A stretch of 64,000 bases of DNA, from positions 930,001 to 994,000 of the forward strand of contig NC_013799.1 of NCBI RefSeq assembly GCF_000010785.1, written 5' to 3'. The notes beneath the pieces are model-generated. The model was not told the DNA's origin, did no database searches, and was given only the letters and a program-made list of their open reading frames with translations. The position numbers and the translations under genes are program-made. This DNA comes from Hydrogenobacter thermophilus TK-6 (GTDB lineage: Bacteria > Aquificota > Aquificia > Aquificales > Aquificaceae). This document shows, one piece after another, positions 2,331-26,125 of this stretch (position 1 is the first letter of the stretch; the number at the start of each line of letters is the position of its first letter).

Positions 2331-2379
2331 ACACAAAATGTGTCCAATTAATAGACATATATTGTCACAAAATGTTACA
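2331..2379. promoter_or_regulatory. Candidate upstream activator sites for the sigma-54 regulator
   Basis: The ten-base word CACAAAATGT occurs twice, at 2332-2341 and 2366-2375, 34 bases apart. Both are embedded in dyads: ACACAAAATGTGT at 2331-2343 and TGTCACAAAATGTTACA at 2363-2379. They lie about 120-165 bases upstream of the predicted transcript start, the usual distance for NtrC-type enhancer sites. Binding by the regulator at 12565-13866 is an inference. Confidence 0.5.
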
Positions 2380-2471: not shown

Positions 2472-2487
2472 TGGCACAAAGTTTGCA
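2472..2487 (+). promoter_or_regulatory. Sigma-54 (RpoN) promoter of the NosZ-like operon
   Basis: TGGCACAAAGTTTGCA matches the -24/-12 consensus (TGGCAC-N5-TTGCA) with the invariant GG (2473-2474) and GC (2485-2486) exactly ten bases apart. Transcription should start near 2498. That lies downstream of the in-frame ATG at 2493, so translation must begin at the ATG at 2523, which has a strong AAAGGAGGTG site. An NtrC-class activator with a GAFTGA motif is encoded in the same cluster. Confidence 0.88.
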
Positions 2488-2522: not shown

Positions 2523-4040
2523 ATGAGTTGGAATAGGAGAGATTTATTTAAGTTAGGTATACTTGGTGCTGTGGTTGGAGGTATAGGTAAGTTAGCGACT
2601 GGTACAGCTCAAGCGTTGCCTATTATTGGTGGAGAGCCAACATTCAACGATGTATATAAACAGATAGGCAGATACATATTTCTAGTACCTGGTAAGTTCG
2701 CGGGTTTAGTGGCAGCTTATGATATGTCAACCGGTATGTGTTTAGCTTGGGCAAATATGAGTATATGGGCAGGGAACAGAACGCCTATTGTGCATCACTT
2801 AGCTGCATTTGCGTCACCAGACCCATATAAAGAGTTTGAGTTCGTTGTTAATACTCAGGGAGGTAAAAACCTATACATATACGGTGTGGCGACACCTGTT
2901 AAGGACCCGGACCCAGGTTTTAACATATGGAGGATAAAGTACGATGGTAGTAAAATGGTCCTTTTGGAGGAAGTAGATAAGACTACAGGTTTAGGGTTGG
3001 GTGTCCACGTTACTGCTGCACCTGACAACAAGCACTTCGCTGTAGCGGATGGACAAAAGGACATATTCGCAGTTTTTGAAAAGGGTGAAGGTACAGCACC
3101 TTCCAAGGTAAAGACTGCAGTTTTCTTTGACTGGGAGCCAAATAGCAAGGAACTTTCCAGAGCTTGGCTGGATGGGGGCACTTTAATCATAAAGAAGCTT
3201 CACCCTCCGTATGACTATACGGGAACAAAAGGTAATAAATTGGACTGGGAGCTCGTTCCCGGAGGAGAGCTATTCGCGGAGCAAGGTAAAGTAACCGGTG
3301 CAAGGGTAAGGAATGCATGCGCTTTAGACTCTCTAACTTGGAATCCTACAAAACCTTACGCCGCCGCTGCACTGAGGACTATAGGCTGTGCTGTTATATT
3401 TGACACTAGAACATGGGAGCCAGTAGCTTGCTTGGTAGGTTCTGATAAGTTTGCAAAGCATGGTTACAAGCTACCAATTAAAAAGGTATCTGCAGACGAG
3501 TGGGAAGTTAAGTTTCCTTTTGTACCTACACCGGCACATCAAGCGGGCTTCCATCCCAGCGGAAATTACTTTGTGCTTATGAATAACATAAGAGAAAACT
3601 CAATGCCTGTGTTTGATTGCTCTTCAAGTGACCCTGGTAAGTGGACAAAGATTGCTTCAGTTGGAGATCCTTCTTGGCGTGGTGCTTATCCAAATCCTTT
3701 CCATATGGTATTTACTCCGGACGGTAAAAAGCTGTTCGTTACCCTGTGGTGGCCTGCTCCAACACCCAATGGACTAGCTGCAGTAGATACAGACACATGG
3801 AAGATAGAAAAAACCATAACTATAGGGCCAGACATACATACATTGGCTATTACTTATGATGGAAAACATCTTTTAGGTGTATTTAGCGGGTATCAGAAAA
3901 CCCACAGTGGCATGTATGTGCTAAGGGTGAAAGATTACAAACTTCTTGGCTATCTACCTAGCCCATTGGGGCATCACGACTGTGTGATAGTACCGAGAAC
4001 CACTAAAGACCTTTACGTAAGTAGGTGTACAACTACATAA
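2523..4040 (+). CDS. Tat-exported NosZ-like beta-propeller protein without CuA domain (putative N2O-reductase-type copper enzyme)
   Basis: The 505-residue protein begins with a twin-arginine signal (NRRDLFK then a hydrophobic stretch, cut near TAQA), so a folded, cofactor-bearing protein is exported to the periplasm. The rest looks like a seven-bladed propeller. The histidines H91-H92, H162, H339, H394, H439 and H484 (or H485) have the order and local contexts of the seven CuZ ligands of nitrous-oxide reductase: HH in blade 1, 'AHQAGFHPSGNYF' like NosZ NPHGCNTSSDGKYF, 'NPFHMVFTPDG' like GPLHTTFDGRG, 'DIHTLAITYDGKHL', and 'GHHDCVIVPR' like PHDCIMARR. The C-terminal cupredoxin (CuA) domain is absent: the chain ends 20 residues after the last ligand. 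Function (N2O reduction or other Cu chemistry) is inferred. Selenium-binding/methanethiol-oxidase and lactonase-type propellers are alternatives but fit the motifs less well. Transcription is from a sigma-54 promoter. Confidence 0.68.
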   Translation: MSWNRRDLFKLGILGAVVGGIGKLATGTAQALPIIGGEPTFNDVYKQIGRYIFLVPGKFAGLVAAYDMSTGMCLAWANMSIWAGNRTPIVHHLAAFASPDPYKEFEFVVNTQGGKNLYIYGVATPVKDPDPGFNIWRIKYDGSKMVLLEEVDKTTGLGLGVHVTAAPDNKHFAVADGQKDIFAVFEKGEGTAPSKVKTAVFFDWEPNSKELSRAWLDGGTLIIKKLHPPYDYTGTKGNKLDWELVPGGELFAEQGKVTGARVRNACALDSLTWNPTKPYAAAALRTIGCAVIFDTRTWEPVACLVGSDKFAKHGYKLPIKKVSADEWEVKFPFVPTPAHQAGFHPSGNYFVLMNNIRENSMPVFDCSSSDPGKWTKIASVGDPSWRGAYPNPFHMVFTPDGKKLFVTLWWPAPTPNGLAAVDTDTWKIEKTITIGPDIHTLAITYDGKHLLGVFSGYQKTHSGMYVLRVKDYKLLGYLPSPLGHHDCVIVPRTTKDLYVSRCTTT

Positions 4041-4098: not shown

Positions 4099-4109
4099 GG
4101 AGGTCTCTT

Positions 4110-5318
4110 ATGAGATTATCAGTTTTTGGTATAGCCGTTGAAAACATAAAAGCTCGTAAACTGAGATACGCGATCATTATGATAGGCATTTCCATAGTGA
4201 CGGGTATATTAGTGCTTACTTTCATACTTGGTATAGGTGCTATATATAGTTTGCAGAAAGGATTATCCCGTTTGGGTGCGGACCTTTTGGTCGTACCAAA
4301 GGAATCGCTGGTGAATCTAAAATCCGCTCTCATCACCGGAGAGCCGTCATCTTTTTACCTTGATGATACTTTAGTTACGAGGATTCGCGAGTTACCAGGA
4401 GTAAAGAGAGTAAGTGCACAGGTATTTCTTGTTAGTGCGACTGGGGAGTGCTGTATTCTTGGAAATTCCTTTCTAATAGGATTTAATCCTCAGGATGATT
4501 TTACTGTACTACCATGGGTTAGAGATAAGTTAAGCGAAAAATTCCCGGAAGATGGTGCTATAGTTGGCCATGACACTCCGTGGAAATTAGGTGAGACCAT
4601 CTTCTTTTACAATGTACCCCTTAGGGTTTGGGGAAAACTTGAACGTACAGGAATTGGTATATACGATAATGCTATATTCTTTCACATAAACAAAGCGTAT
4701 GAAATGTCGGATAAATCCCAGACAGGTCCTGTTCCACTTAAACCGATGAGGGGGAAAGTATCAGCCATACTTATACAGCTGGAACCAGGGGCAAAAATAC
4801 CATTCGTGGTATTTTCTATTTTTAAGCTTGATCCTAACGTAAAAGTTGTTACAACCGGCAACATTATTACAGAAGCAAGACAGATACTAACAGGAGTTAT
4901 ATATGGTATTTTTGCTATTGTGCTTGCCTTAATAGTATCAAACATGTTAAATATCAATACGGTTTTTTCCGCAATAGTAAATGAACGGCTTAGAGAAATA
5001 GGCATACTAAGAGCCATAGGAGCTACAAAGTTTGATGTTTTTAAACTCATACTTTACGAATCTATTATAACTTGCTTATTAGGGGGAATTCTGGGTGTTC
5101 TTATGGGATTGATAATGCTTAGGATATTTCAAAGAAGCTGGATATTTTACTTGAAGTTGGTAAATATACCCTTTACTTTACCTCCAATATGGATAATCCT
5201 TTTGATATTTATAGCCATCCTACTTATAACCTTTGTAATAAGCTTATTCGGCGCATATTTACCTGCAAGAAGAGCTTCGGAAGTTCTTCCTTATGATGCT
5301 ATTCGGGAGGTAGCATGA
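4110..5318 (+). CDS. FtsX/MacB-type ABC permease 1 with periplasmic Cys pair
   Basis: 402 residues from the ATG at 4110, chosen because GGAGG lies 7-12 bases upstream (an in-frame ATG at 4071 sits inside the hairpin). One transmembrane helix near residues 18-44 is followed by a periplasmic MacB-like domain and three C-terminal helices, with the 'NERLREIGILRAIGAT' signature of FtsX/LolC/MacB permeases. A vicinal Cys pair (C114-C115, GECCILGN) lies in the periplasmic domain, unusual for the family and suited to metal or thiol chemistry. It directly precedes an ATPase gene. The role in maturation of, or export for, the NosZ-like enzyme is inferred from position. Confidence 0.85.
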   Translation: MRLSVFGIAVENIKARKLRYAIIMIGISIVTGILVLTFILGIGAIYSLQKGLSRLGADLLVVPKESLVNLKSALITGEPSSFYLDDTLVTRIRELPGVKRVSAQVFLVSATGECCILGNSFLIGFNPQDDFTVLPWVRDKLSEKFPEDGAIVGHDTPWKLGETIFFYNVPLRVWGKLERTGIGIYDNAIFFHINKAYEMSDKSQTGPVPLKPMRGKVSAILIQLEPGAKIPFVVFSIFKLDPNVKVVTTGNIITEARQILTGVIYGIFAIVLALIVSNMLNINTVFSAIVNERLREIGILRAIGATKFDVFKLILYESIITCLLGGILGVLMGLIMLRIFQRSWIFYLKLVNIPFTLPPIWIILLIFIAILLITFVISLFGAYLPARRASEVLPYDAIREVA

Positions 5319-6047
5319 ATGTGCTTTATAGAAGTTAAGGACCTTACAAAGATATATAAGTTAGGAAATAGAAACATAGAAGCCTTAAGGGGTGTGAACT
5401 TATGTATAAAAAAAGGAGAATTTGTAAAAATACTAGGATACTCAGGCTCCGGAAAAAGTACGCTCATAAGCATAATAGGAGGTTTGTTAGCTCCAACTAG
5501 CGGTAAAGTTTTTATAGAAGGTATAGATATATGGAGCCTATCAGATAAGGAACTTTCCAAGCTAAGGAACGAGAAAATTGGATTTATATTCCAGAACATG
5601 TCTTTGCTACCCTCTTTGAAGGTTATAGACAATGTTATCAGTCCAGCAATATTTGCATCTAAGAATTCCAAAATAGACATTTATGAAAGAGCTAAGGAAA
5701 TACTAAGCCTGGTAGGTTTGGAAAGCAGGATTCACAGTTACCCAAGCGAGTTATCCGGTGGTGAGCAGAGGAGAGTTTCAATAGCAAGAGCTTTAATAAA
5801 TGATCCGGATATTATCTTGGCAGATGAGCCAACGGGAGAGTTAGATATAAAGACAGAAAGAGATATCATTGAATTATTTAAGTATCTGAATAGAGATTTA
5901 GATAAAACTATTATAGTTGTTACTCACAGCTTAAGATGGTTAAGTGTAGAAGGTATAACTCTAATAATGAAAGATGGTTTGATTTATGATAAAGTAGAAG
6001 ATCCAGAGAAGTTTCTATTGGAAGGAGTTAAACATGAGAATAGTTAG
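5319..6047 (+). CDS. LolD/MacB-type ABC transporter ATPase 1
   Basis: 242 residues with Walker A GYSGSGKST (about residues 45-53), Q-loop, signature LSGGEQRR, Walker B ILADEPTGELD and the switch His in VVTHS. This is the standard ATPase partner of FtsX-like permeases. Its ATG follows the permease stop without a gap, with GGGAGG as ribosome site inside the upstream gene, and its end overlaps the next permease by 14 bases. It should energise permease 1 and/or permease 2. Confidence 0.93.
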   Translation: MCFIEVKDLTKIYKLGNRNIEALRGVNLCIKKGEFVKILGYSGSGKSTLISIIGGLLAPTSGKVFIEGIDIWSLSDKELSKLRNEKIGFIFQNMSLLPSLKVIDNVISPAIFASKNSKIDIYERAKEILSLVGLESRIHSYPSELSGGEQRRVSIARALINDPDIILADEPTGELDIKTERDIIELFKYLNRDLDKTIIVVTHSLRWLSVEGITLIMKDGLIYDKVEDPEKFLLEGVKHENS

Positions 6048-7284
6048 GCTTTCTCTCCTGTTTATTGCGAAAAATTATAAAGTTAATATTCCGTTCATGC
6101 TTATTTTAACTTTCGCACTAAGTGTTTTCTTAGTATCTGTAATATTCAAAGAAGTATCTATAAAATCAGTAATATCGGTATTAGATAGGAGCGGTCATAT
6201 GCTTGTGGTTGTGCCGACCTCCGCTGTGGAAGAAATAGAAAAAACTGGAGATGTTATATTTACAAACAGCTTTATACCAGAAGATAGCTTATCAGCAATA
6301 GCAAGTATATATGACAAAGCAATAGAGGCAGGTTGGAGAAGGAAAGGAGGATTCGTATCACAGCCGGGGATAGGTGAAGGGGGTAAAGCAAAAGAGGTGT
6401 TACAACCACCTACTTGGTCCCCGAGGCTCTATCAATATGCAAAAGTAAAAGGAGAAAAGATGGTGGTAGCTGGAGTAGATTTTAGAAAAGAGTATGAAGT
6501 AAGGTTATGGTGGGATTTGAAGGATGGTATGTGGCCGTTTGATATAGCGGATTCATATGCAGCTCTAATAGGTGAAAATGTACACGAAAAAATGAAGTTG
6601 AACGTTTATGATACTATTACAATAAACAACACACCCTTTAAAGTGTATGGGATTTTAAAAAGAATAGGCACTGAAGATGATAATATGATATTTATTCCCC
6701 TGAAAACTGCGCAAAATATTTTTAATAAAAAAGGATTAGTTTCAATGTTTGCGGTTAGAGCTATGTGTGATTTTTGTCCAGTAGGTGATGCACTTATTCA
6801 GATAAACAAAAGCATAGCGGGCATAAGTGTGCTATCGCAACAAGATATTTCTAAAGCACAATATTATTTTAGGGAAGTTATATACAAATATTTGCAATAC
6901 ATAGGCTTAACTGTAATACTTTTTACTATAACTATGCTGTACTTACTTGCTGGTTGGTATATATCAAGAAATGCAAAAGATTTAGCTCTGCTTAAAGCGT
7001 TTGGAGCTAAATTTTCCGATATGCTAATGTTTATCAGTATAAACATATTATTGCTAACTTTATTAAGTAGTTTACTTGGCTATGCTTTAAGCCTTGCAAT
7101 AGTCTATTCAGTGTGCAGTATTTCTAATATATATTTCCTATACACATTAAATTTATATCACATTCTTCTATCCAACGTAGTAGGTTTAGCTATAAGTTTT
7201 ATAAGTGTGTTTCTACGTTTGCTGAAGTTTTCTAAAATGAGTTTCATAAAGCTATACAACTATGGAGGAACTACCTATGGGTAA
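6034..7284 (+). CDS. FtsX/MacB-type ABC permease 2 with periplasmic CxxC
   Basis: 416 residues. There is an N-terminal helix (about 18-38), a large periplasmic domain with a Trp/Gly/Pro-rich insertion (about 100-170), and C-terminal helices beginning near residue 285. The family signature is weak ('ISRNAKDLALLKAFGAKFSD'). The periplasmic domain contains CDFC (C245, C248), the second cysteine motif in this permease set. It overlaps both neighbours, indicating translational coupling. The substrate is unknown; the cysteines suggest copper or thiol handling but do not prove it. Confidence 0.82.
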   Translation: MRIVRLSLLFIAKNYKVNIPFMLILTFALSVFLVSVIFKEVSIKSVISVLDRSGHMLVVVPTSAVEEIEKTGDVIFTNSFIPEDSLSAIASIYDKAIEAGWRRKGGFVSQPGIGEGGKAKEVLQPPTWSPRLYQYAKVKGEKMVVAGVDFRKEYEVRLWWDLKDGMWPFDIADSYAALIGENVHEKMKLNVYDTITINNTPFKVYGILKRIGTEDDNMIFIPLKTAQNIFNKKGLVSMFAVRAMCDFCPVGDALIQINKSIAGISVLSQQDISKAQYYFREVIYKYLQYIGLTVILFTITMLYLLAGWYISRNAKDLALLKAFGAKFSDMLMFISINILLLTLLSSLLGYALSLAIVYSVCSISNIYFLYTLNLYHILLSNVVGLAISFISVFLRLLKFSKMSFIKLYNYGGTTYG

Positions 7285-8467
7285 GGTTTTTTCCATAGCT
7301 ATTAAGGATATTCTAAACCGTCCTACAACTTTATATGTGTCTTTAGTGATACTTTTAATAATTAACCTTGTAAGTATTACTATAGGTGTATCTTTAAAAG
7401 TAAAGGAATCCACCATTAATACACTTACAAAATTAGGTTATACTTTCTCCGTATATCCTAAAAACTTTACACCAAGTAATGTAGAAGAGATAGGATTCGT
7501 GAAATTAAAAAAGATAAATGATACAACTATTGATTACACAAAAGATGCATTTATACCTAGGGAGAGCGTTGATAAGATATATAACTTAATAAAAAAGTAT
7601 GACAATAACGCACTATTACTACCTAGGCTATATGTAAGGGTAAATGTTTTGTATAAAAGAATACCTTTAAACTTAACTCTAGCTGGTGTGGATTTTAATA
7701 TAGAGAGAAAAGCAAGACCTTTTTTAGGACTTATCGCAGGAAGTTTGCCAGCTAATAAGGAAAATATTCTCATAGGTGCAGCAGTTGCAAAAAAAATCTC
7801 AGTAAATGATAACCTGGTTATTATGGGTAAAACATTCACGGTAAGCGGAATATATGAGTACACCGGCACAATTGATGATTTCCTTGTATTTGTTGATTTA
7901 CATGAACTCCAATCCTTATATAACACATACCAGCTTTCGCTAATAAATGTGAGTAGCTCCAAACTTGATGCTACACCAAACCTATTGAACGAATTAATTT
8001 CGCGCATAGAAAACACGATCCCGAATGTTAAGATAGTAGTACCAAAACAACTGGCAGAGCTAAAAATCAAATTCATTGATAAGATAATACTCATAACAAT
8101 AGTAAGTTGTTTAGTGCTAATACCTTTAGGGATAATATTCCTATATATTTCTGTTTACTTTGATATAAAGGCTAAGGAAAGAACTATAAATGTACTAAGT
8201 ATATTCTGGGGTTATAACAGACACATTGGAACATTTTTACTTATTCAGTATGGTATGATAACCCTTATTTCCATGATACTGGCGCTTTTAACTAGCTATA
8301 TAGGAAAAATTTTGATCACTAAAAATATACTAAACATGGTTATAGTACGGTTAGAGTTTTCAGATTTACAGTTAATTATAGCAGTTGCTGTAATATCCAT
8401 CCTAATAATTGTACTTATCGTTTCGCTTCATTATAAAGCAAAAAAGGAGGTGAAGTTCTATGGCTAA
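7277..8467 (+). CDS. FtsX/MacB-type ABC permease 3
   Basis: 396 residues from the ATG at 7277; GGAGG at 7264-7268 favours this over the ATG at 7262. It has the same plan as permease 2: an N-terminal helix, a periplasmic domain with 'LAGVDFNIERKARPF' parallel to 'VAGVDFRKEYEVRLWW' of permease 2, and C-terminal helices. So permeases 2 and 3 are probably paralogues that form a heterodimer with ATPase 2. It has no periplasmic cysteine pair. The final stretch overlaps the following ATPase gene by eight bases. Confidence 0.82.
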   Translation: MGKVFSIAIKDILNRPTTLYVSLVILLIINLVSITIGVSLKVKESTINTLTKLGYTFSVYPKNFTPSNVEEIGFVKLKKINDTTIDYTKDAFIPRESVDKIYNLIKKYDNNALLLPRLYVRVNVLYKRIPLNLTLAGVDFNIERKARPFLGLIAGSLPANKENILIGAAVAKKISVNDNLVIMGKTFTVSGIYEYTGTIDDFLVFVDLHELQSLYNTYQLSLINVSSSKLDATPNLLNELISRIENTIPNVKIVVPKQLAELKIKFIDKIILITIVSCLVLIPLGIIFLYISVYFDIKAKERTINVLSIFWGYNRHIGTFLLIQYGMITLISMILALLTSYIGKILITKNILNMVIVRLEFSDLQLIIAVAVISILIIVLIVSLHYKAKKEVKFYG

Positions 8468-9149
8468 TGTTATAGTCGAGCTTAAAAATGTATCAAAATC
8501 CTATACTGGTAGTGAACTTATTCCGGTTCTAAAAAGTGTTTATCTCACTGTGGAGTTGGGGAAAATTTATATAATCTTAGGTCCGAGTGGTTCTGGTAAA
8601 ACGACGCTTCTAAACATAATAGGCTTGCTGGATAAACCGTCAGAGGGTGAGGTGTTTTTCGAAGGAGAACGTGTGGATACCTTATCGGAAGATGAATTAG
8701 CTGTGAAAAGAGCTGGTAAGATAAGCTATATTTTCCAAGATATTAGATTAATTCCCACACTATCTGCTATAGACAATATCCTACTGCCTACATATTTCGT
8801 AAAATATAAGATTGATTTCTCTTTTTTAGAGTATCTTTTAAATTCTCTCAATTTAAACAATAAAGTTAAGATGTATCCATCGCAACTTAGTGGGGGACAA
8901 GCTCAAAGAGTTGCAATAATAAGAGCTCTTATTACAAAACCAATGCTACTTCTAGCGGATGAACCCACAGCAAATCTGGACACCAAAAATAAGGACATAG
9001 TGAAGGAGATTCTGTATAATTACTCAAGAGAGAATAACGCTTCCGTGGTACTTGCTACACACGATCAGAGTGTTGTTGATATAGGGGACTATGTTTTATG
9101 CATTTCAGATGGTGTTTTAAAAAGAAACCAGGATTGTTTGAGGTGTTGA
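8460..9149 (+). CDS. LolD/MacB-type ABC transporter ATPase 2
   Basis: 229 residues with Walker A GPSGSGKTT, signature LSGGQAQRV, Walker B LLLADEPTANLD and LATHDQS. A strong AAGGAGGTG site lies inside the preceding permease gene. Two ATPases for three permeases in one operon imply two transporters, or one mixed complex. The arrangement recalls the NosF-NosY part of the nos maturation system, though these permeases belong to the FtsX, not the NosY, superfamily. Confidence 0.92.
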   Translation: MANVIVELKNVSKSYTGSELIPVLKSVYLTVELGKIYIILGPSGSGKTTLLNIIGLLDKPSEGEVFFEGERVDTLSEDELAVKRAGKISYIFQDIRLIPTLSAIDNILLPTYFVKYKIDFSFLEYLLNSLNLNNKVKMYPSQLSGGQAQRVAIIRALITKPMLLLADEPTANLDTKNKDIVKEILYNYSRENNASVVLATHDQSVVDIGDYVLCISDGVLKRNQDCLRC

Positions 9150-9151
9150 GT

Positions 9152-9811
9152 ATGATAGATAGGGTGGAGCGCTTCAGTATAAAGAAAAAATATATTTTAG
9201 GCGCTTTACTAGTAGTAATTATTGCATTCCTGATTGATTATTCAATAGGATTCTGGCAAAGTTATCTTCTAAAGAAGAAAGAGGAGCTAAGAAAAGAGTT
9301 AGAGAATATAGCTTATTTCCAAATATTCCCAGACATAGCGGATATAAATTATAAAGGAGATGGGCATACTTATGTAATCAAGTTTAAAATAGAGAGTATA
9401 TATCCAGATACGGTCTATATAACTAACCCACAGGTTACAGCGTACATACAAACGGGTACAGTTTGGACTGAGCTACCCGTTTACGAGAGTAATATGCAGG
9501 GTCAAAAACAAATATTAGAGTTAAAAAATGGAACATACTACTTTTACAGAGAAGTAGACATAAAACCTTCCATAAAATATACCGAATATCTAATGCCATT
9601 CTACATGCATGTTAAGTTTAATATGATGTTCTTTGTTATGCCTAAAAAATACTTAGATATAAAAGAAAACATATATGAAAATATCACAACAAGATATGTT
9701 GATTTATATACTTACTTAAAACCTTATGGAATTAGCGATGAAGTTATACTTAAAAAACTAAATTTCCCAGATAATAAGGTACCCATTTTTATACCTATGC
9801 CACCACATTAA
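9152..9811 (+). CDS. Membrane-anchored periplasmic protein of unknown family
   Basis: 219 residues from the ATG at 9152, two bases after the ATPase stop; an earlier ATG at 9098 would overlap the ATPase. A single N-terminal helix (about residues 14-36) is followed by a short coiled segment (KKKEELRKELENI) and a beta-rich periplasmic domain with no cysteine and few histidines. I do not recognise the family. Like MacA or other adaptor proteins it could link the transporter to periplasmic clients, but no adaptor signature is visible. Confidence 0.75.
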   Translation: MIDRVERFSIKKKYILGALLVVIIAFLIDYSIGFWQSYLLKKKEELRKELENIAYFQIFPDIADINYKGDGHTYVIKFKIESIYPDTVYITNPQVTAYIQTGTVWTELPVYESNMQGQKQILELKNGTYYFYREVDIKPSIKYTEYLMPFYMHVKFNMMFFVMPKKYLDIKENIYENITTRYVDLYTYLKPYGISDEVILKKLNFPDNKVPIFIPMPPH

Positions 9812-9821
9812 GGAGGTTAGC

Positions 9822-10370
9822 ATGTTTATTGTTATGACTTTGTTAGTATGGTTAGGGTTAGGTTGTGCACATGAGGTAGCAGCCAATGTCTCCCCTTATT
9901 CTTATATGGTGAAGTATCCTTGGATAGTTAAAATACATCCCCCTATAGTGCACTACGCGATCAGCGTACCTATTATAAGTTTGGCTTTTGAACTATATTA
10001 CATATTAAGAAAAAGATCTAACAATACTTTAGCTATAATCTTGCATGTACTTAGTATATTAGTTATTACTGTGGCTGTTTTAACCGGTTATGTAGTACAT
10101 AAAGCTATATCAGCTATACCAGTATATGTTGAAGCTATGCATATCCTCCATATACACCAAAGAATCGGTTTTTACATATTAGCTATGTCTTATGCATGGC
10201 TATTTCTTATTATCATATATGCACTCAAGCCATATAAATATCTAAAAATTTTTTCTATTATCCTATTAATACTTATTTGCTGTTTCGTGTTTTATCAAAG
10301 TTATTTAGGTGGTATTATGGTTTACGATTATGGTTTAGGAGTAAATATAGAAAATCAAGACTGGAGGTAA
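9822..10370 (+). CDS. DUF2231 membrane protein, putative b-type cytochrome
   Basis: 182 residues, ribosome site AAGGAGG, with an N-terminal signal-like segment and about four transmembrane helices. The pattern 'KIHPPIVHYAIS' (H39, H44), 'LTGYVVHKA' (H93), 'HILHIHQRIG' (H107, H110, H112) and the final 'YLGGIMVYDYGLGV' are features of DUF2231 proteins, where the histidines probably bind haem. In this operon it is a candidate quinol-linked electron donor for the exported enzyme. That role is inferred. Confidence 0.78.
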   Translation: MFIVMTLLVWLGLGCAHEVAANVSPYSYMVKYPWIVKIHPPIVHYAISVPIISLAFELYYILRKRSNNTLAIILHVLSILVITVAVLTGYVVHKAISAIPVYVEAMHILHIHQRIGFYILAMSYAWLFLIIIYALKPYKYLKIFSIILLILICCFVFYQSYLGGIMVYDYGLGVNIENQDWR

Positions 10371-10375
10371 CACCG

Positions 10376-10786
10376 ATGTGTCGTTTTAAGGTTTTATTCA
10401 TATTTCTATTTGGAATTTTAGCATTATCAAGCACATCAACAGCTGAATATATAGCTAAATCTATATCAGAATATAAGGTTTATACAGGCAGGTTAGTTTT
10501 TGCCTCCAAGCCAAAAGTTGGAAAGAATTCAGCTCTTTTATATATCTTCTACACCAAAAGCAATAATCCTATTAATAAAAAGCTCAATCTTGAGGTAGTG
10601 CCTTGGATGACTGAGCATGAACATGGTTCTACTGAAATACCAAAGGTAAGTTTAGGAATGAAAGCGGGTGAATATAAGATAACATCTTTAACATTTACTA
10701 TGCCAGGCAAGTGGCAAATTTATGTAAAAGTAAAAGATAATAATTTTGAAGATACTTTGGTATTTGATGTAAATGTGGCAAAATGA
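10376..10786 (+). CDS. YtkA/FixH-like periplasmic protein
   Basis: 136 residues from the ATG at 10376 (GGAGG upstream; the longer frame from 10277 overlaps the DUF2231 gene). A signal peptide (about 1-23) precedes one immunoglobulin-like domain ending 'LTFTMPGKWQIYVKVKD', the YtkA signature. W77, M78, H81, H83 and M94 form a Met/His cluster of the kind that binds copper in related periplasmic proteins. It could deliver copper to the NosZ-like enzyme. No CuA-type CxxxC motif exists, so it does not replace the missing CuA domain. Confidence 0.75.
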   Translation: MCRFKVLFIFLFGILALSSTSTAEYIAKSISEYKVYTGRLVFASKPKVGKNSALLYIFYTKSNNPINKKLNLEVVPWMTEHEHGSTEIPKVSLGMKAGEYKITSLTFTMPGKWQIYVKVKDNNFEDTLVFDVNVAK

Positions 10787-12252
10787 GAAAGCCAATAACT
10801 GTTCTATTGTTTATTATATTTATTACCACAATTCCGTTTATGTTTCCTAGGAATTTTGTATATAAAAATATTTTCTTACATGCATTTATTGAAATACTAT
10901 CTGGAGTTTTAAGTATACTATTCGGTTCTTTTATAGCAATACATTACAAAAAATATGCCAAATTATGGCTTTTAGATGTTATCAGTGTACCTTTCATAGC
11001 GTTAGGAATTTCTGAAATTCTACATGCTTTTACTACTAATGTGCAATTTTTCATATGGACTAGAGTTTTAGGAAACTCCTTAAATATTTTGCTAATCTTT
11101 TTATATATGATTGCTTATAAATTTCTAAATGCAACTCTAATTCAAAAGCTTCCAATTAAGCTTTCAGTGATACTGATTTCTGTAATTTCTTTGGCAACTA
11201 GCCCCATATTTTTACCGCACCCTTTAGAAACTTATGTTGAGGACATAGATATAATAAGAAACGGTGTAGGTTTTTCTATATATACCAAAATCATAAATAC
11301 TTTCAACGGAGTAATATATTATGCAATATCACTGTTCCTAATTCAAGATTATCTAAGAAACAGAGAATACTTATATACCCCCTTCATTATAAGTTTTTTT
11401 CTTTTTGCAAGTAGCTGCTTTCTTTTCCCTGAATCTAAGCTATGGAATTTGCAGTGGTGGTATTGGCACATTATAAGGTTGTTAGCTCACATAATAATAT
11501 TAATATTTGCGTTTAGATTTTATAATCTGATCGTGGATAAAGTGATTGAACAGAAGACTATGTTAATAGAAATACAAGAAAAACTTTTGAACATGCATAA
11601 ATACGGTATAACTGAAAGTTTAAATGCACTATATTCACATAATATAAAAAATAAATTAAGCATACTAAAAAACCACATAGAGATACTGAAAAACTTCTAT
11701 ATTTTTGATAAGGAAGCACTCGAATTAGTAAATTTGATGGAAATAGAATTAGATAAAATTCATAAAACGTTAATCGATAGTAGACCGAAAATTAATAACA
11801 CATACGAGAATTTATATGATCTAATAAGTAATATAGTTAAAGAATTAACAATAATTACGATAGATAAAGCTATTCACTTAAATTGGTTTATAGATAAGCA
11901 ACTAGATAAGGTGATAGTTCCTAAGTTTTTAATAGAAACTGCTTTGTGGAATATAATTATAAACAGTTTAGAAGCATTAGCTAATACGGAAAAACCGGAT
12001 AGAATTATTAAGCTATCCGGAGAGATTTCAGGACAAACTAAAGAAGCTATTATTATAGTGGAAGATAATGCAGAAGGCTTACCAACCACAATTAAGGAAG
12101 AGATTTTCAAGCCTTTCCAAACGTCAAAACCTGGAGGATGGGGCCTGGGCCTAAGTTTTGCTAAATTTGCGGCTACTGTATTAGGAGGAAGTCTAGATAT
12201 TATAGGAGAAGAAGGTAAAGGAACGAGGGTTATACTTAAATTACCGACCTAG
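10783..12252 (+). CDS. Membrane histidine kinase of the cluster
   Basis: 489 residues, ATGA overlap with the YtkA-like gene. The N-terminal half has seven or eight transmembrane helices resembling a MASE3-type sensor ('HAFIEILSGVLSILFG', 'GISEILHAF'). The cytoplasmic half has an atypical H-box (YSHNIKNKLS, about residue 286), N-box IIINSLEAL, a G1 motif with Ala for Gly (EDNAEGLP), an F-box-like KPFQTSK and the G2 loop GGWGLGLSFA. The convergent NtrC-type regulator is the likely partner. Membrane-embedded histidines could sense a gas, redox state or metal, which is speculation. Confidence 0.88.
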   Translation: MRKPITVLLFIIFITTIPFMFPRNFVYKNIFLHAFIEILSGVLSILFGSFIAIHYKKYAKLWLLDVISVPFIALGISEILHAFTTNVQFFIWTRVLGNSLNILLIFLYMIAYKFLNATLIQKLPIKLSVILISVISLATSPIFLPHPLETYVEDIDIIRNGVGFSIYTKIINTFNGVIYYAISLFLIQDYLRNREYLYTPFIISFFLFASSCFLFPESKLWNLQWWYWHIIRLLAHIIILIFAFRFYNLIVDKVIEQKTMLIEIQEKLLNMHKYGITESLNALYSHNIKNKLSILKNHIEILKNFYIFDKEALELVNLMEIELDKIHKTLIDSRPKINNTYENLYDLISNIVKELTIITIDKAIHLNWFIDKQLDKVIVPKFLIETALWNIIINSLEALANTEKPDRIIKLSGEISGQTKEAIIIVEDNAEGLPTTIKEEIFKPFQTSKPGGWGLGLSFAKFAATVLGGSLDIIGEEGKGTRVILKLPT

Positions 12253-12564: not shown

Positions 12565-13866
12565 TCATTTCCCGTTGATAATTCTGTATATAGTTTGCCT
12601 GCTAATGCCTAACTCCTTCGCTGTTTTTGTTATATTATAATTAAATCGTTCCAAAGTCTTTAGTATGTAATATTTATTAAACTCCTTTAATTTTTTAAAT
12701 CCTAAATTATCGGTTTTTACTTCATTATTCCTAATGTAATCTGGTAGATCCATAAGAGTAAGATACACACGTTCACTTTTTGCAACAGAATAAAATATAA
12801 TGTTTTTAAGCTCCCTTATGTTTCCGGGATAATCGTGGTTAAGTAGAACTTCCATTACATCGTCAGATATATAACAAGGAATATCCTTAGAGAATTCTTT
12901 CTTAGCTTCTTCCATAAACTTATACGATAATGGAACTATCATATCTTTCAATTCCCTTAGCGGAGGTAGATGTATATGTATGACATTTATCCTATAAAAC
13001 AAGTCTTTACGTATCCTTTCTTTTAGCTGGTCACGGTCAATATTTGTGGCAGTTATTAACCTAAAATCAACTATCTTTTCTTGTATATCTCCAATACGTC
13101 TCATTCTTCTATTCTCTAAAACATCTAACAATTTTGCCTGCATATTGCCAGGTAGGCACTCAATCTCATCAATAAATAAAGTACCGTTATGCGCAAGTTC
13201 GATCATACCTGCTTTTTCATAGATCGCGCCTGTAAAAGCACCTTTTTTAAAACCAAAAAGCTCCGCTTCAAATAAACCATCAGGAATAGTGCTGGCTTCA
13301 ATGTGAACAAAATTGTAATCTTTTCTATTGGACATTTTATGTACATATTTAGCTAGAAATGTTTTACCTACACCAGTTTCCCCAGTTAGTAGTAGGGGTA
13401 AATTATACTGTGTGGCAATACACAACTTATCCTGTATATCTTTTTTATACATATAAATCTCATCTAAACTATTGGTGTTTTTTTGTTTACATGACAAGTA
13501 ATGTAAAGCTTTATTAATCTTAAGTATTAAATCATTAATGTCAAAAGGCTTAGAAATAAAATCAAATATTCCAGATTTTATTGAGTTTACAGCGTCCTCA
13601 AAACTACCATAAGCAGTGATAACAATGATAGGAATATCTGAATTCTTTAACATTATTTTTTTACTTAGTTCGAGCCCATTTTCGTTATTCAGCTTTAAAT
13701 CCATAAGTATAACATCTATGTGTTCTTTACTTAATAAATTTAGAGCTGAAAATGAGTTACAGGCTGTGAAAACTTTAAAACCTTTTTTCTCAAATAGATA
13801 TTTTAATGAGTTTAGGAAAGCTTGCTCGTCATCTATTATTAATATACTAGGGATAGCGGCTCTCAT
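12565..13866 (-). CDS. NtrC-family sigma-54-dependent response regulator
   Basis: 433 residues in three parts: a receiver domain (about 8-122; ILIIDDEQAF, phosphoryl Asp in VILMDLKL, SKPFD), an AAA+ domain (Walker A GETGVGKT, GAFTGA loop for contacting sigma-54, Walker B GTLFIDEIE) and a Fis-type helix-turn-helix at the C-terminus (NITKTAKELGISRQTIYRII). The start at 13866 is preferred over 13887 because TATATT at 13874-13879 predicts a transcript start one base before that ATG. It should activate the sigma-54 promoter at 2472 in response to the kinase encoded beside it. Confidence 0.92.
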   Translation of the reverse strand: MRAAIPSILIIDDEQAFLNSLKYLFEKKGFKVFTACNSFSALNLLSKEHIDVILMDLKLNNENGLELSKKIMLKNSDIPIIVITAYGSFEDAVNSIKSGIFDFISKPFDINDLILKINKALHYLSCKQKNTNSLDEIYMYKKDIQDKLCIATQYNLPLLLTGETGVGKTFLAKYVHKMSNRKDYNFVHIEASTIPDGLFEAELFGFKKGAFTGAIYEKAGMIELAHNGTLFIDEIECLPGNMQAKLLDVLENRRMRRIGDIQEKIVDFRLITATNIDRDQLKERIRKDLFYRINVIHIHLPPLRELKDMIVPLSYKFMEEAKKEFSKDIPCYISDDVMEVLLNHDYPGNIRELKNIIFYSVAKSERVYLTLMDLPDYIRNNEVKTDNLGFKKLKEFNKYYILKTLERFNYNITKTAKELGISRQTIYRIINGK

Positions 13867-13873
13867 GATTTTA

Positions 13874-13879
13874 AATATA
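13874..13879 (-). promoter_or_regulatory. -10 box of the NtrC-type regulator, leaderless
   Basis: TATATT on the minus strand ends seven bases before the ATG at 13866. No Shine-Dalgarno site is seen before either possible start. Confidence 0.4.
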
Positions 13880-13887
13880 TAGCCCAT

Positions 13888-24321: not shown

Positions 24322-26125
24322 TCTTCACCTCCTTGCTGATATTTTCCAAAAGTTTATCCGAGCTATCCTCTTCTGTAAGACCAAGGTAAGAGAGGTAGGA
24401 TTCTATGCTGACCCATCTTCTTAACACCATACCTTGAGTGATGAGGTTCAAAAAGGGTTCTTCATCTTTAACAAGATTTAGGTCTTTTAAAAACTTCTGG
24501 AAGAATCTGGCATAAAGAAGGTGAAGGACTGCATGCTCTATACCACCTATGTAAATGTCAACCGGCATCCAAAAGCTTGCCTTTTGGTAGTCAAAGGGTA
24601 AGCTTTCGTTTTTGGGGTCGCAGTATCTTAAAAAGTACCAAGAGGAGTCAAAAAAAGTATCCATAGTATCCGTTTCGCGCCTTGCAGGACCACCGCACTT
24701 AGGACATGTGGTATTTACAAACTCCTCAACGCTTTCCAACGGGTTTCCGTGGCCAGTTATTTTAACATCCTTAGGGAGCAAAACAGGCAGGTCTTCCTCA
24801 GGAACTGGCACCGTACCACACCTTTTGCAGTAAATTATAGGTATAGGGGTGCCCCAGTATCTCTGCCTTGATATGTTCCAATCCTTTAGCCTGTATGTTA
24901 TCTTAAAATCACCATGTCCTCTGTCTTTGAGCCATGAGGTTATAACCTTTTTAGCTTCTGTAGAGCTAAGCCCATCAAATGGTCCTGAGTTTATAAGCAC
25001 GCCTTCGCCTTCGTATGCTCTATCTGTGGGTAGCTTTCCTTCGTAGGGAGAAATAACCTGTTTAATGGGGAGGTTATACTTTATAGCAAATTCGTAATCC
25101 CTCTGGTCGTGTGCTGGGACTGCCATTATGGCACCTGTGCCGTACTCATAAAGGACATAGTTGGCACTCCATACAGGTATTTTTTCACCATTGGCTGGAT
25201 TTACAGCATAAACCCCCAAGAAAACGCCTTCCTTTTGCTCCTCCTTTCCTCTCTCTTTGGGAGGTATGCTTCTTATCCTCTCTACAAAAGGAAGCACCTC
25301 TTTGATTTTTCCTCCCTTCTCTGCCAGGCTTAGTGTGAGTGGATGCTCTGGAGCAAGCACCAGGAATGTTGCGCCAAAAACAGTGTCAGGTCTTGTTGTA
25401 AAAACATCTACAGCAGTATCGTCAGCATAAAACTTTATTATGGCACCCTCTGACCTTCCTATCCAGTTTCTCTGCTGAGATATCACCCTTTCTGGCCACT
25501 TTCCTTCTAAAAGTTTAAGGTCCTCAAGAAGTCTATCTGCGTAATGGGTGATTTTAAGATACCAAGATGGCACTTCTTTTTTGATTACTGGAGTTCCACA
25601 CCTCCAACATCTCCCATCTATAACCTGCTCGTTGGCTAATACCGTCTCATCATTGGGGCACCAATTTACCTCTGCAAGCTTCCTGTATGCCAATCCCCTC
25701 TCATAAAACTTTAAGAATATCCACTGGTTCCATCGGTAATACTCGGGGTCACATGTGGCTATCTCCCTGTCCCAATCGTAGGAAAAGCCAAGCCTTTTGA
25801 GCTGATTTTTCATGTACGCTATGTTTTTGTAAGTCCAGTCAGCTGGATGAATGCCTTGCTTTATGGCTGCATTCTCAGCTGGAAGACCAAAAGCATCCCA
25901 TCCCATAGGATGAAGCACACGGTACCCTTTAAATCTCAAAAACCTTGCCACCACATCACCTATGGTGTAATTTCTCACATGGCCCATGTGTATCCTTCCA
26001 GATGGGTAGGGAAACATCTCCAGCACATAGACCTTTTTCCCTTCATCATGAGCCTTGAAAAGCTCAAGCTCCTCCCAGACTCTTTGCCACTTTTCCTCTA
26101 TATCCTTAGGAACATACTCCCGCAT
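24305..26125 (-). CDS. leuS: Leucyl-tRNA synthetase alpha subunit (split LeuRS)
   Basis: 606 residues carrying the HIGH signature ([14 protein letters not shown], about residues 40-53), the zinc/CP1 editing domain ('[20 protein letters not shown]', '[12 protein letters not shown]') and the second half of the Rossmann core up to '[11 protein letters not shown]'. It ends there: the KMSKS loop and anticodon-binding domain are missing. This is the known Aquificales arrangement in which a separate beta subunit supplies them; that gene is not in the window. It is the first gene of a minus-strand operon, with a TATCAT -10 box at 26133-26138 giving a one-base leader. Confidence 0.95.

Follow-up and report, generated by a model that had tools for sequence, protein, structure and literature searches.

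The DUF2231 protein and the YtkA-like protein encoded at 9822-10786 probably form a periplasm-facing copper-handling pair (we put the probability at roughly 0.6), which would serve the thiocyanate dehydrogenase (TcDH) of the same operon, a multi-copper enzyme, by supplying or guarding its copper. The window, i.e., the whole stretch of DNA that was analysed, measures 64 kb and belongs to the Hydrogenobacter thermophilus genome, which is a single contig of 1,743,135 bases. The enzyme family, the operon layout, the conservation and the genomic context were computed, and from these we infer copper binding, the direction of transfer and the contacts between the proteins. A third protein of the operon, P220, is a stronger candidate partner of TcDH than the DUF2231 and YtkA-like proteins, being present in 60 of 64 TcDH-like loci, and was overlooked by the sequence-only reading that had singled out the latter two.

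The open reading frames and Pfam matches place both genes where they had been claimed. Starting from TcDH, the genes for a permease, an ATPase, two further permeases, a second ATPase, P220, DUF2231, YtkA and a histidine kinase make up one tight run, in which the gap between P220 and the DUF2231 gene is 11 nt and that between DUF2231 and YtkA 5 nt. The pair had been described as the end of the operon, which is nearly correct; the histidine kinase gene (10783-12252) overlaps the YtkA stop. The features of the locus are the following:

2332..2342, no strand assigned: putative activator site 1, palindrome CACAAAATGTG, direct-repeat family D1/D4, upstream of the sigma-54 promoter
2363..2379, no strand assigned: putative activator site 2, repeat TGTCACAAAATGTTACA
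2472..2487, plus strand: sigma-54 promoter TGGCACAAAGTTTGCA, a zero-mismatch match to TGGCACNNNNNTTGCW
2523..4040, plus strand: thiocyanate dehydrogenase (TcDH), predicted from PDB phmmer (E=7e-188) and 13/13 active-site residues
4101..5318, plus strand: MacB/FtsX-type permease 1 (PF02687, 66.9 bits; PF12704, 43.9 bits)
5319..6047, plus strand: ABC ATPase 1, LolD/MacB type (PF00005, 118.8 bits)
6034..7284, plus strand: MacB/FtsX-type permease 2 (PF12704, 42.8 bits; PF02687, 36.4 bits)
7262..8467, plus strand: MacB/FtsX-type permease 3 (PF12704, 36.8 bits)
8460..9149, plus strand: ABC ATPase 2 (PF00005, 109.4 bits)
9152..9811, plus strand: P220, a 220-aa membrane-anchored Ig-like protein ending in PMPPH (in 60/64 loci; AF2 pLDDT 91.6)
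9822..10370, plus strand: DUF2231 protein with four TM helices (PF09990, 39.8 bits, cut-off 26.4)
10376..10786, plus strand: YtkA-like periplasmic protein (PF13115, 63.1 bits, cut-off 25.9)
10783..12252, plus strand: sensor histidine kinase (PF02518, 56.6 bits), with a homologous kinase in other TcDH clusters
12565..13887, minus strand: sigma-54 response regulator with GAFTGA (NtrC-type NCBIfam matches), with homologues in other TcDH clusters

Neither strand of the 64-kb window has a second zero-mismatch match to TGGCACNNNNNTTGCW besides the promoter TGGCACAAAGTTTGCA, which ends 35 nt upstream of the ATG at 2523. The two candidate activator sites upstream of it are spaced 34 nt apart, and TGTCACAAAATGTTACA is the sole match to TGTnAC..GTnACA in the window.

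The enzyme at the start of the run is, by predicted family, active-site residues and agreement with the published TcDH gene order, a thiocyanate dehydrogenase. A phmmer search of the PDB matched query residues 41/42-505 to the solved TcDHs 8q9x (E=7e-188) and 5f75 (E=6.9e-164). All 13 active-site residues given for T. paradoxus TcDH in the legend of Fig. 4 of PMC6504805, hand-mapped from the alignment, are present (K58, H91, H92, Q112, H162, E243, D269, H339, H394, H439, H485, D486 and R501), and a Tat signal, NRRDLFKLG, is visible by eye in MSWNRRDLFKLG. Kinship with TcDH is in itself not new, as PMC5328954 counts a H. thermophilus protein of unknown function among the two nearest to TcDH. 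An assignment to N2O reductase was rejected, with L-NosZ (clade III lactonase type, NF052460) reaching 14.6 bits where the curated cut-off is 700. The earlier statement that the enzyme lacks CuA holds as far as can be seen, yet it misleads, since it concerns a protein that is no NosZ. Elsewhere in the genome, a separate NosZ-type gene (C1:168440-170329, minus strand) scores 353 bits to TIGR04244, below the cut-off of 625. TcDH is described in PMC9456337 as converting thiocyanate to cyanate and sulfur with transfer of electrons to cytochrome c; since it releases electrons, no CuA-like entry is required, and the supposed need for another electron entry disappears. The electrons would instead pass to a c-type cytochrome whose gene lies elsewhere; c-type cytochrome genes (CxxCH) were not found in the window, except for one 99-aa ORF (25034-25330) that matches apparently by chance. 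A cyanase gene in the genome (C1:1019110-1019529, minus strand; 183 bits, cut-off 113.3) fits a thiocyanate pathway. Among 136 Aquificota genomes, cyanase exceeds the cut-off in only five, and the four others from this genus are not among them.

TcDH itself occurs in one of the 136 Aquificota genomes, that of the host. In a tree of 27 rows it clusters with four Nitrospirota sequences (support 100/100), and this grouping suggests that the gene was acquired by horizontal transfer. From a scan of genome contigs, 80 of 105 relatives were kept and supplemented with a Methylocella plasmid locus, giving 81 loci. Setting aside 17 loci with less than 4 kb downstream of the enzyme left 64, in which neighbours were called by phmmer at E<1e-5. 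Among these 64 TcDH-like loci, an FtsX permease, an ATPase and P220 are each present in 60, YtkA in four and DUF2231 in none. The active-site columns of the window enzyme are kept in its 12 close relatives, i.e., 12 of the 81 loci carry all 13 residues. The remaining 69 (L009, L022-L089) constitute a sister group with 12 of the 13, the His at position 439 being replaced by Gln (n = 68) or Glu (n = 1). Hosts of the sister group include Reyranella, Methylocella, Melainabacteria, Verrucomicrobia and others; the acidophilic methanotroph Methylocella tundrae, for example, carries a plasmid TcDH-like gene (L009 and L024; 47% identical, H439Q). P220 and one ABC pair are common to the TcDH group and the sister group, which argues for a task at the copper site and not one tied to thiocyanate as such.

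Wherever P220 occurs it stands alongside an FtsX/ATPase pair, and in the remaining four of the 64 loci P220, permease and ATPase are all missing. No Pfam family matches the protein. Its C-terminal motif is Met-Pro-x-His; a C-terminal His, mostly in the form MPPH, ends 71 of 72 P220 rows, the exception (L081) being cut by the contig end. Invariant in 49 rows are Q101, W106, Y152, H154, L190, P212, M217, P218 and H220 (numbered from base 9149, one more than from the ATG at 9152). The AF2 model (pLDDT 91.6) consists of a long helix (residues 2-58) and an Ig-like sandwich. Foldseek returned a LEA protein as the sole match below 1e-3 (6.1e-4), with the Cu(I) chaperone 3zk0 at 7.1e-3, and the best VIA-align score (Z 8.2) was to gamma-adaptin ears, which have a common Ig-like arrangement. 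As neither search gave a decisive structural relative, a function based on the fold was not accepted. We propose that P220 may deliver copper together with the MacB-type transporter; PMC5744179 states as open both how TcDH acquires copper and what role the adjoining ABC transporters have.

The idea of the YtkA-like protein as a copper partner gains support from other TcDH clusters. In the four readable Nitrospirota clusters (L011, L012, L013 and L018), YtkA directly follows the P220 genes, so that the association with the enzyme gene is conserved there, together with metal-type residues. The proposed Met/His cluster largely stands: W77, M78, H81 and H83 are invariant in an alignment of all five TcDH-cluster homologues, M94 is variable and M109 is invariant in its stead. 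When the PDB was searched with a YtkA profile, the top match was a 'Copper resistance protein' (9ll2), at an E-value (0.023) too weak to be relied on. Known YtkA proteins load copper into cytochrome oxidase. In B. subtilis, YtkA/CtaK and YcnJ, a CopC-CopD-YtkA protein, are described as supplying copper to oxidases (PMC13344008, PMC12362106). L011, L012 and L013 share the gene order of the window, i.e., TcDH, FtsX, ATPase, FtsX, FtsX, ATPase, P220 and YtkA, and thus also the extra (third) permease. They differ in having two P220 copies and an additional protein of 177-206 aa after YtkA, and in lacking DUF2231.

The DUF2231 protein, by contrast, does not accompany the enzyme across loci and was rejected as a conserved TcDH partner: in addition to the zero count by phmmer, an HMM search found a single PF09990 gene near TcDH (L017:18719-19342, minus strand), which lies some 9 kb further down on the opposite strand, and PF09990 is above the cut-off in two of 12 TcDH genomes and not in the other ten. 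It is therefore at best a lineage-specific helper. DUF2231 proteins occur in 69 of 136 Aquificota genomes. A long class comprises 19 full-length proteins including the window copy, and the surroundings of 15 of the 18 others were fetched; a DNA pattern search for further rows gave three loci, and scans of viral contigs none that was usable. Copper genes (CusB, NosL, Cu-ATPase, CusA, DUF411 or multicopper oxidase) surround the long-class gene in 14 of the 15 contexts, L139 being the one with none of these. A NosL-like gene lies directly downstream in ten contexts, and a CusB-type protein with a YtkA domain in its model is found in 11. The host has such a copper operon of its own with a paralogous long-class DUF2231 gene, as confirmed by Pfam, and its genome contains exactly two PF13115 genes, namely the operon YtkA and the CusB adjoining this paralogue. 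Like the window, the Aquificaceae copper operons (L123 and others) combine a DUF2231 protein bearing the same six His, including the N-terminal one, with a nearby YtkA domain (in CusB); unlike in the window, the neighbours of DUF2231 there are not TcDH but NosL, Cu-ATPase and RND genes. In a tree sampled from Aquificota only, the window copy falls, with 97/95 support, into a group with the paralogue from the host's copper operon and four relatives, at the end of a long branch (1.39). In Nitrospirota, matches occur in 22 of 198 genomes with at best 39 bits, compared to 118 bits within Aquificaceae. As the Nitrospirota matches are confined to the core and do not extend to the region of the N-terminal His, the donor lineage appears an unlikely source of the DUF2231 copy. 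With its Nitrospirota-type TcDH genes and Aquificaceae copper-class DUF2231, the operon looks like a mosaic.

This genomic company also fits another explanation. DUF2231 may shield cell or enzyme against surplus copper or toxic products in an efflux-linked role and may have been captured with the operon; maturation of TcDH would then fall to YtkA, P220 and the ABC transporters alone. Its kin reside in efflux operons and it is dispensable in other TcDH clusters. Indeed, the copper-operon context could mean efflux rather than delivery, and the occurrence of YtkA in only four of 64 loci and the divergence of DUF2231 likewise count against a copper-supplying pair. Nonetheless, the gene is located between P220 (11 nt) and YtkA (5 nt) under the TcDH sigma-54 promoter and not in a copper-responsive unit, and we consider a purely efflux-linked role rather improbable.

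The residues of the DUF2231 protein bear on the original proposal of an electron partner with haem b in the membrane, i.e., a cytochrome by which the enzyme would exchange electrons with the quinone pool. The protein has eight His (17, 39, 44, 75, 93, 107, 110 and 112); an alignment of the long class shows H17, H39, H44, H93, H110 and H112 to be conserved, H75 and H107 not. H17 is the predicted mature N-terminus: a His is present in 19/19 long-class proteins, and an AxA-like signal-peptide site precedes it in 18/19. The charge bias of the loops predicts that both termini, as well as the loop joining helices 2 and 3, lie outside, which would make all six conserved His face the periplasm, the five other than H17 being at predicted periplasmic helix ends. 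The six conserved His thus all lie on one face, one of them N-terminal, and do not form a trans-membrane haem ladder. An AF2 model of the protein alone (pLDDT 63) is too poor for placing the His, and a Pfam search gave no cytochrome match. A single haem could in principle be held on the periplasmic side by four predicted helices with His close to their outer ends, and the gene does lie within the TcDH operon. A role as electron partner is, however, at odds with an enzyme that is a dehydrogenase and not a reductase, and with a protein that is absent from the other TcDH clusters examined and whose class sits in copper-efflux operons. Methionaquinone is a naphthoquinone of low potential. It is the quinone of the host (PMC3111988), and because of this low potential its reduction by electrons from TcDH would be uphill; the acceptor of the T. 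paradoxus enzyme is given in PMC9456337 as a c-type cytochrome of about +250 mV. A haem-b cytochrome is consequently improbable. In CopC-type and YcnI proteins, Cu(II) is bound at an N-terminal His (PMC12362106), and the predicted pattern of a periplasmic N-terminal His with helix-end His is no less compatible with copper than with haem. A chance insertion without a part in thiocyanate oxidation, as the lack of conservation with TcDH and the long branch might imply, is very improbable for an open, intact frame that is tightly spaced between operon genes and retains all six class His at about 35% identity.

For the copper-handling pair, the following course can be envisaged. DUF2231 would be a membrane copper-binding protein that uses its mature N-terminal His and the five conserved His at the outer membrane face, and YtkA a soluble or loosely anchored copper chaperone acting via W77, M78, H81, H83 and M109. 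Together, they would fill the place of copCD in the Thioalkalivibrio TcDH clusters. Copper would move from DUF2231/YtkA to P220 and on to the exported TcDH, aided by the MacB-type ABC transporters: the Met/His tail of P220 may present it to TcDH and the transporter may drive the exchange in a manner resembling NosL/NosDFY.

Known systems offer partial parallels. The published TcDH gene order of T. thiocyanoxidans ARh 2, where copCD flank TcDH (PMC5744179; PMC5328954), matches the window operon. The latter differs in its three permeases, its DUF2231 and YtkA genes and a regulator on the opposite strand, and in being without copCD, tatA or fccAB beside TcDH; the Thioalkalivibrio cluster has two permeases, compared to three, with two ATPases, in the window (4101-8467 region). 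B. subtilis YcnJ/CtaK similarly combines an N-terminal-His Cu(II) site, a His-bearing membrane part and a YtkA domain that supplies a respiratory enzyme (PMC13344008, PMC12362106). YcnJ, however, is one fused protein with CopC and CopD, whereas DUF2231 and YtkA are separate and show no CopC or CopD domain in Pfam at E<=1. The pair is therefore likened to CopC/CopD by presumed function, with no claim of family membership. NosL and NosDFY, which are thought to load copper in N2O reductase, likewise represent an ABC transporter and a copper chaperone adjoining a multi-copper beta-propeller enzyme (PMC6530538). In contrast, the window has a MacB/FtsX-type permease and P220 but no NosY, NosD or NosL, and the enzyme belongs to a different family. 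A more ambitious version is possible, although we regard it as doubtful. DUF2231 would then be the first of a novel class of copper proteins in the membrane, binding the metal at an N-terminal His, and would form, with YtkA, a split, non-homologous counterpart of CopC-CopD-YtkA. This pair would feed a copper-insertion machine of P220, with its C-terminal Met-Pro-x-His tail, and the MacB-type ABC transporter, which would load the trinuclear copper site of TcDH and its sister group, convergent with NosDFY/NosL.

A full-text literature search for DUF2231 gave a single, unrelated paper, and the present analysis may provide the first copper-linked functional lead for this family. It also corrects a misreading, in that the second 'NosZ-like' enzyme of the organism is predicted to oxidise thiocyanate rather than to reduce N2O. 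For the question of how TcDH acquires its copper, the locus offers a specific list of parts: P220, YtkA and, in this thermophile, DUF2231.
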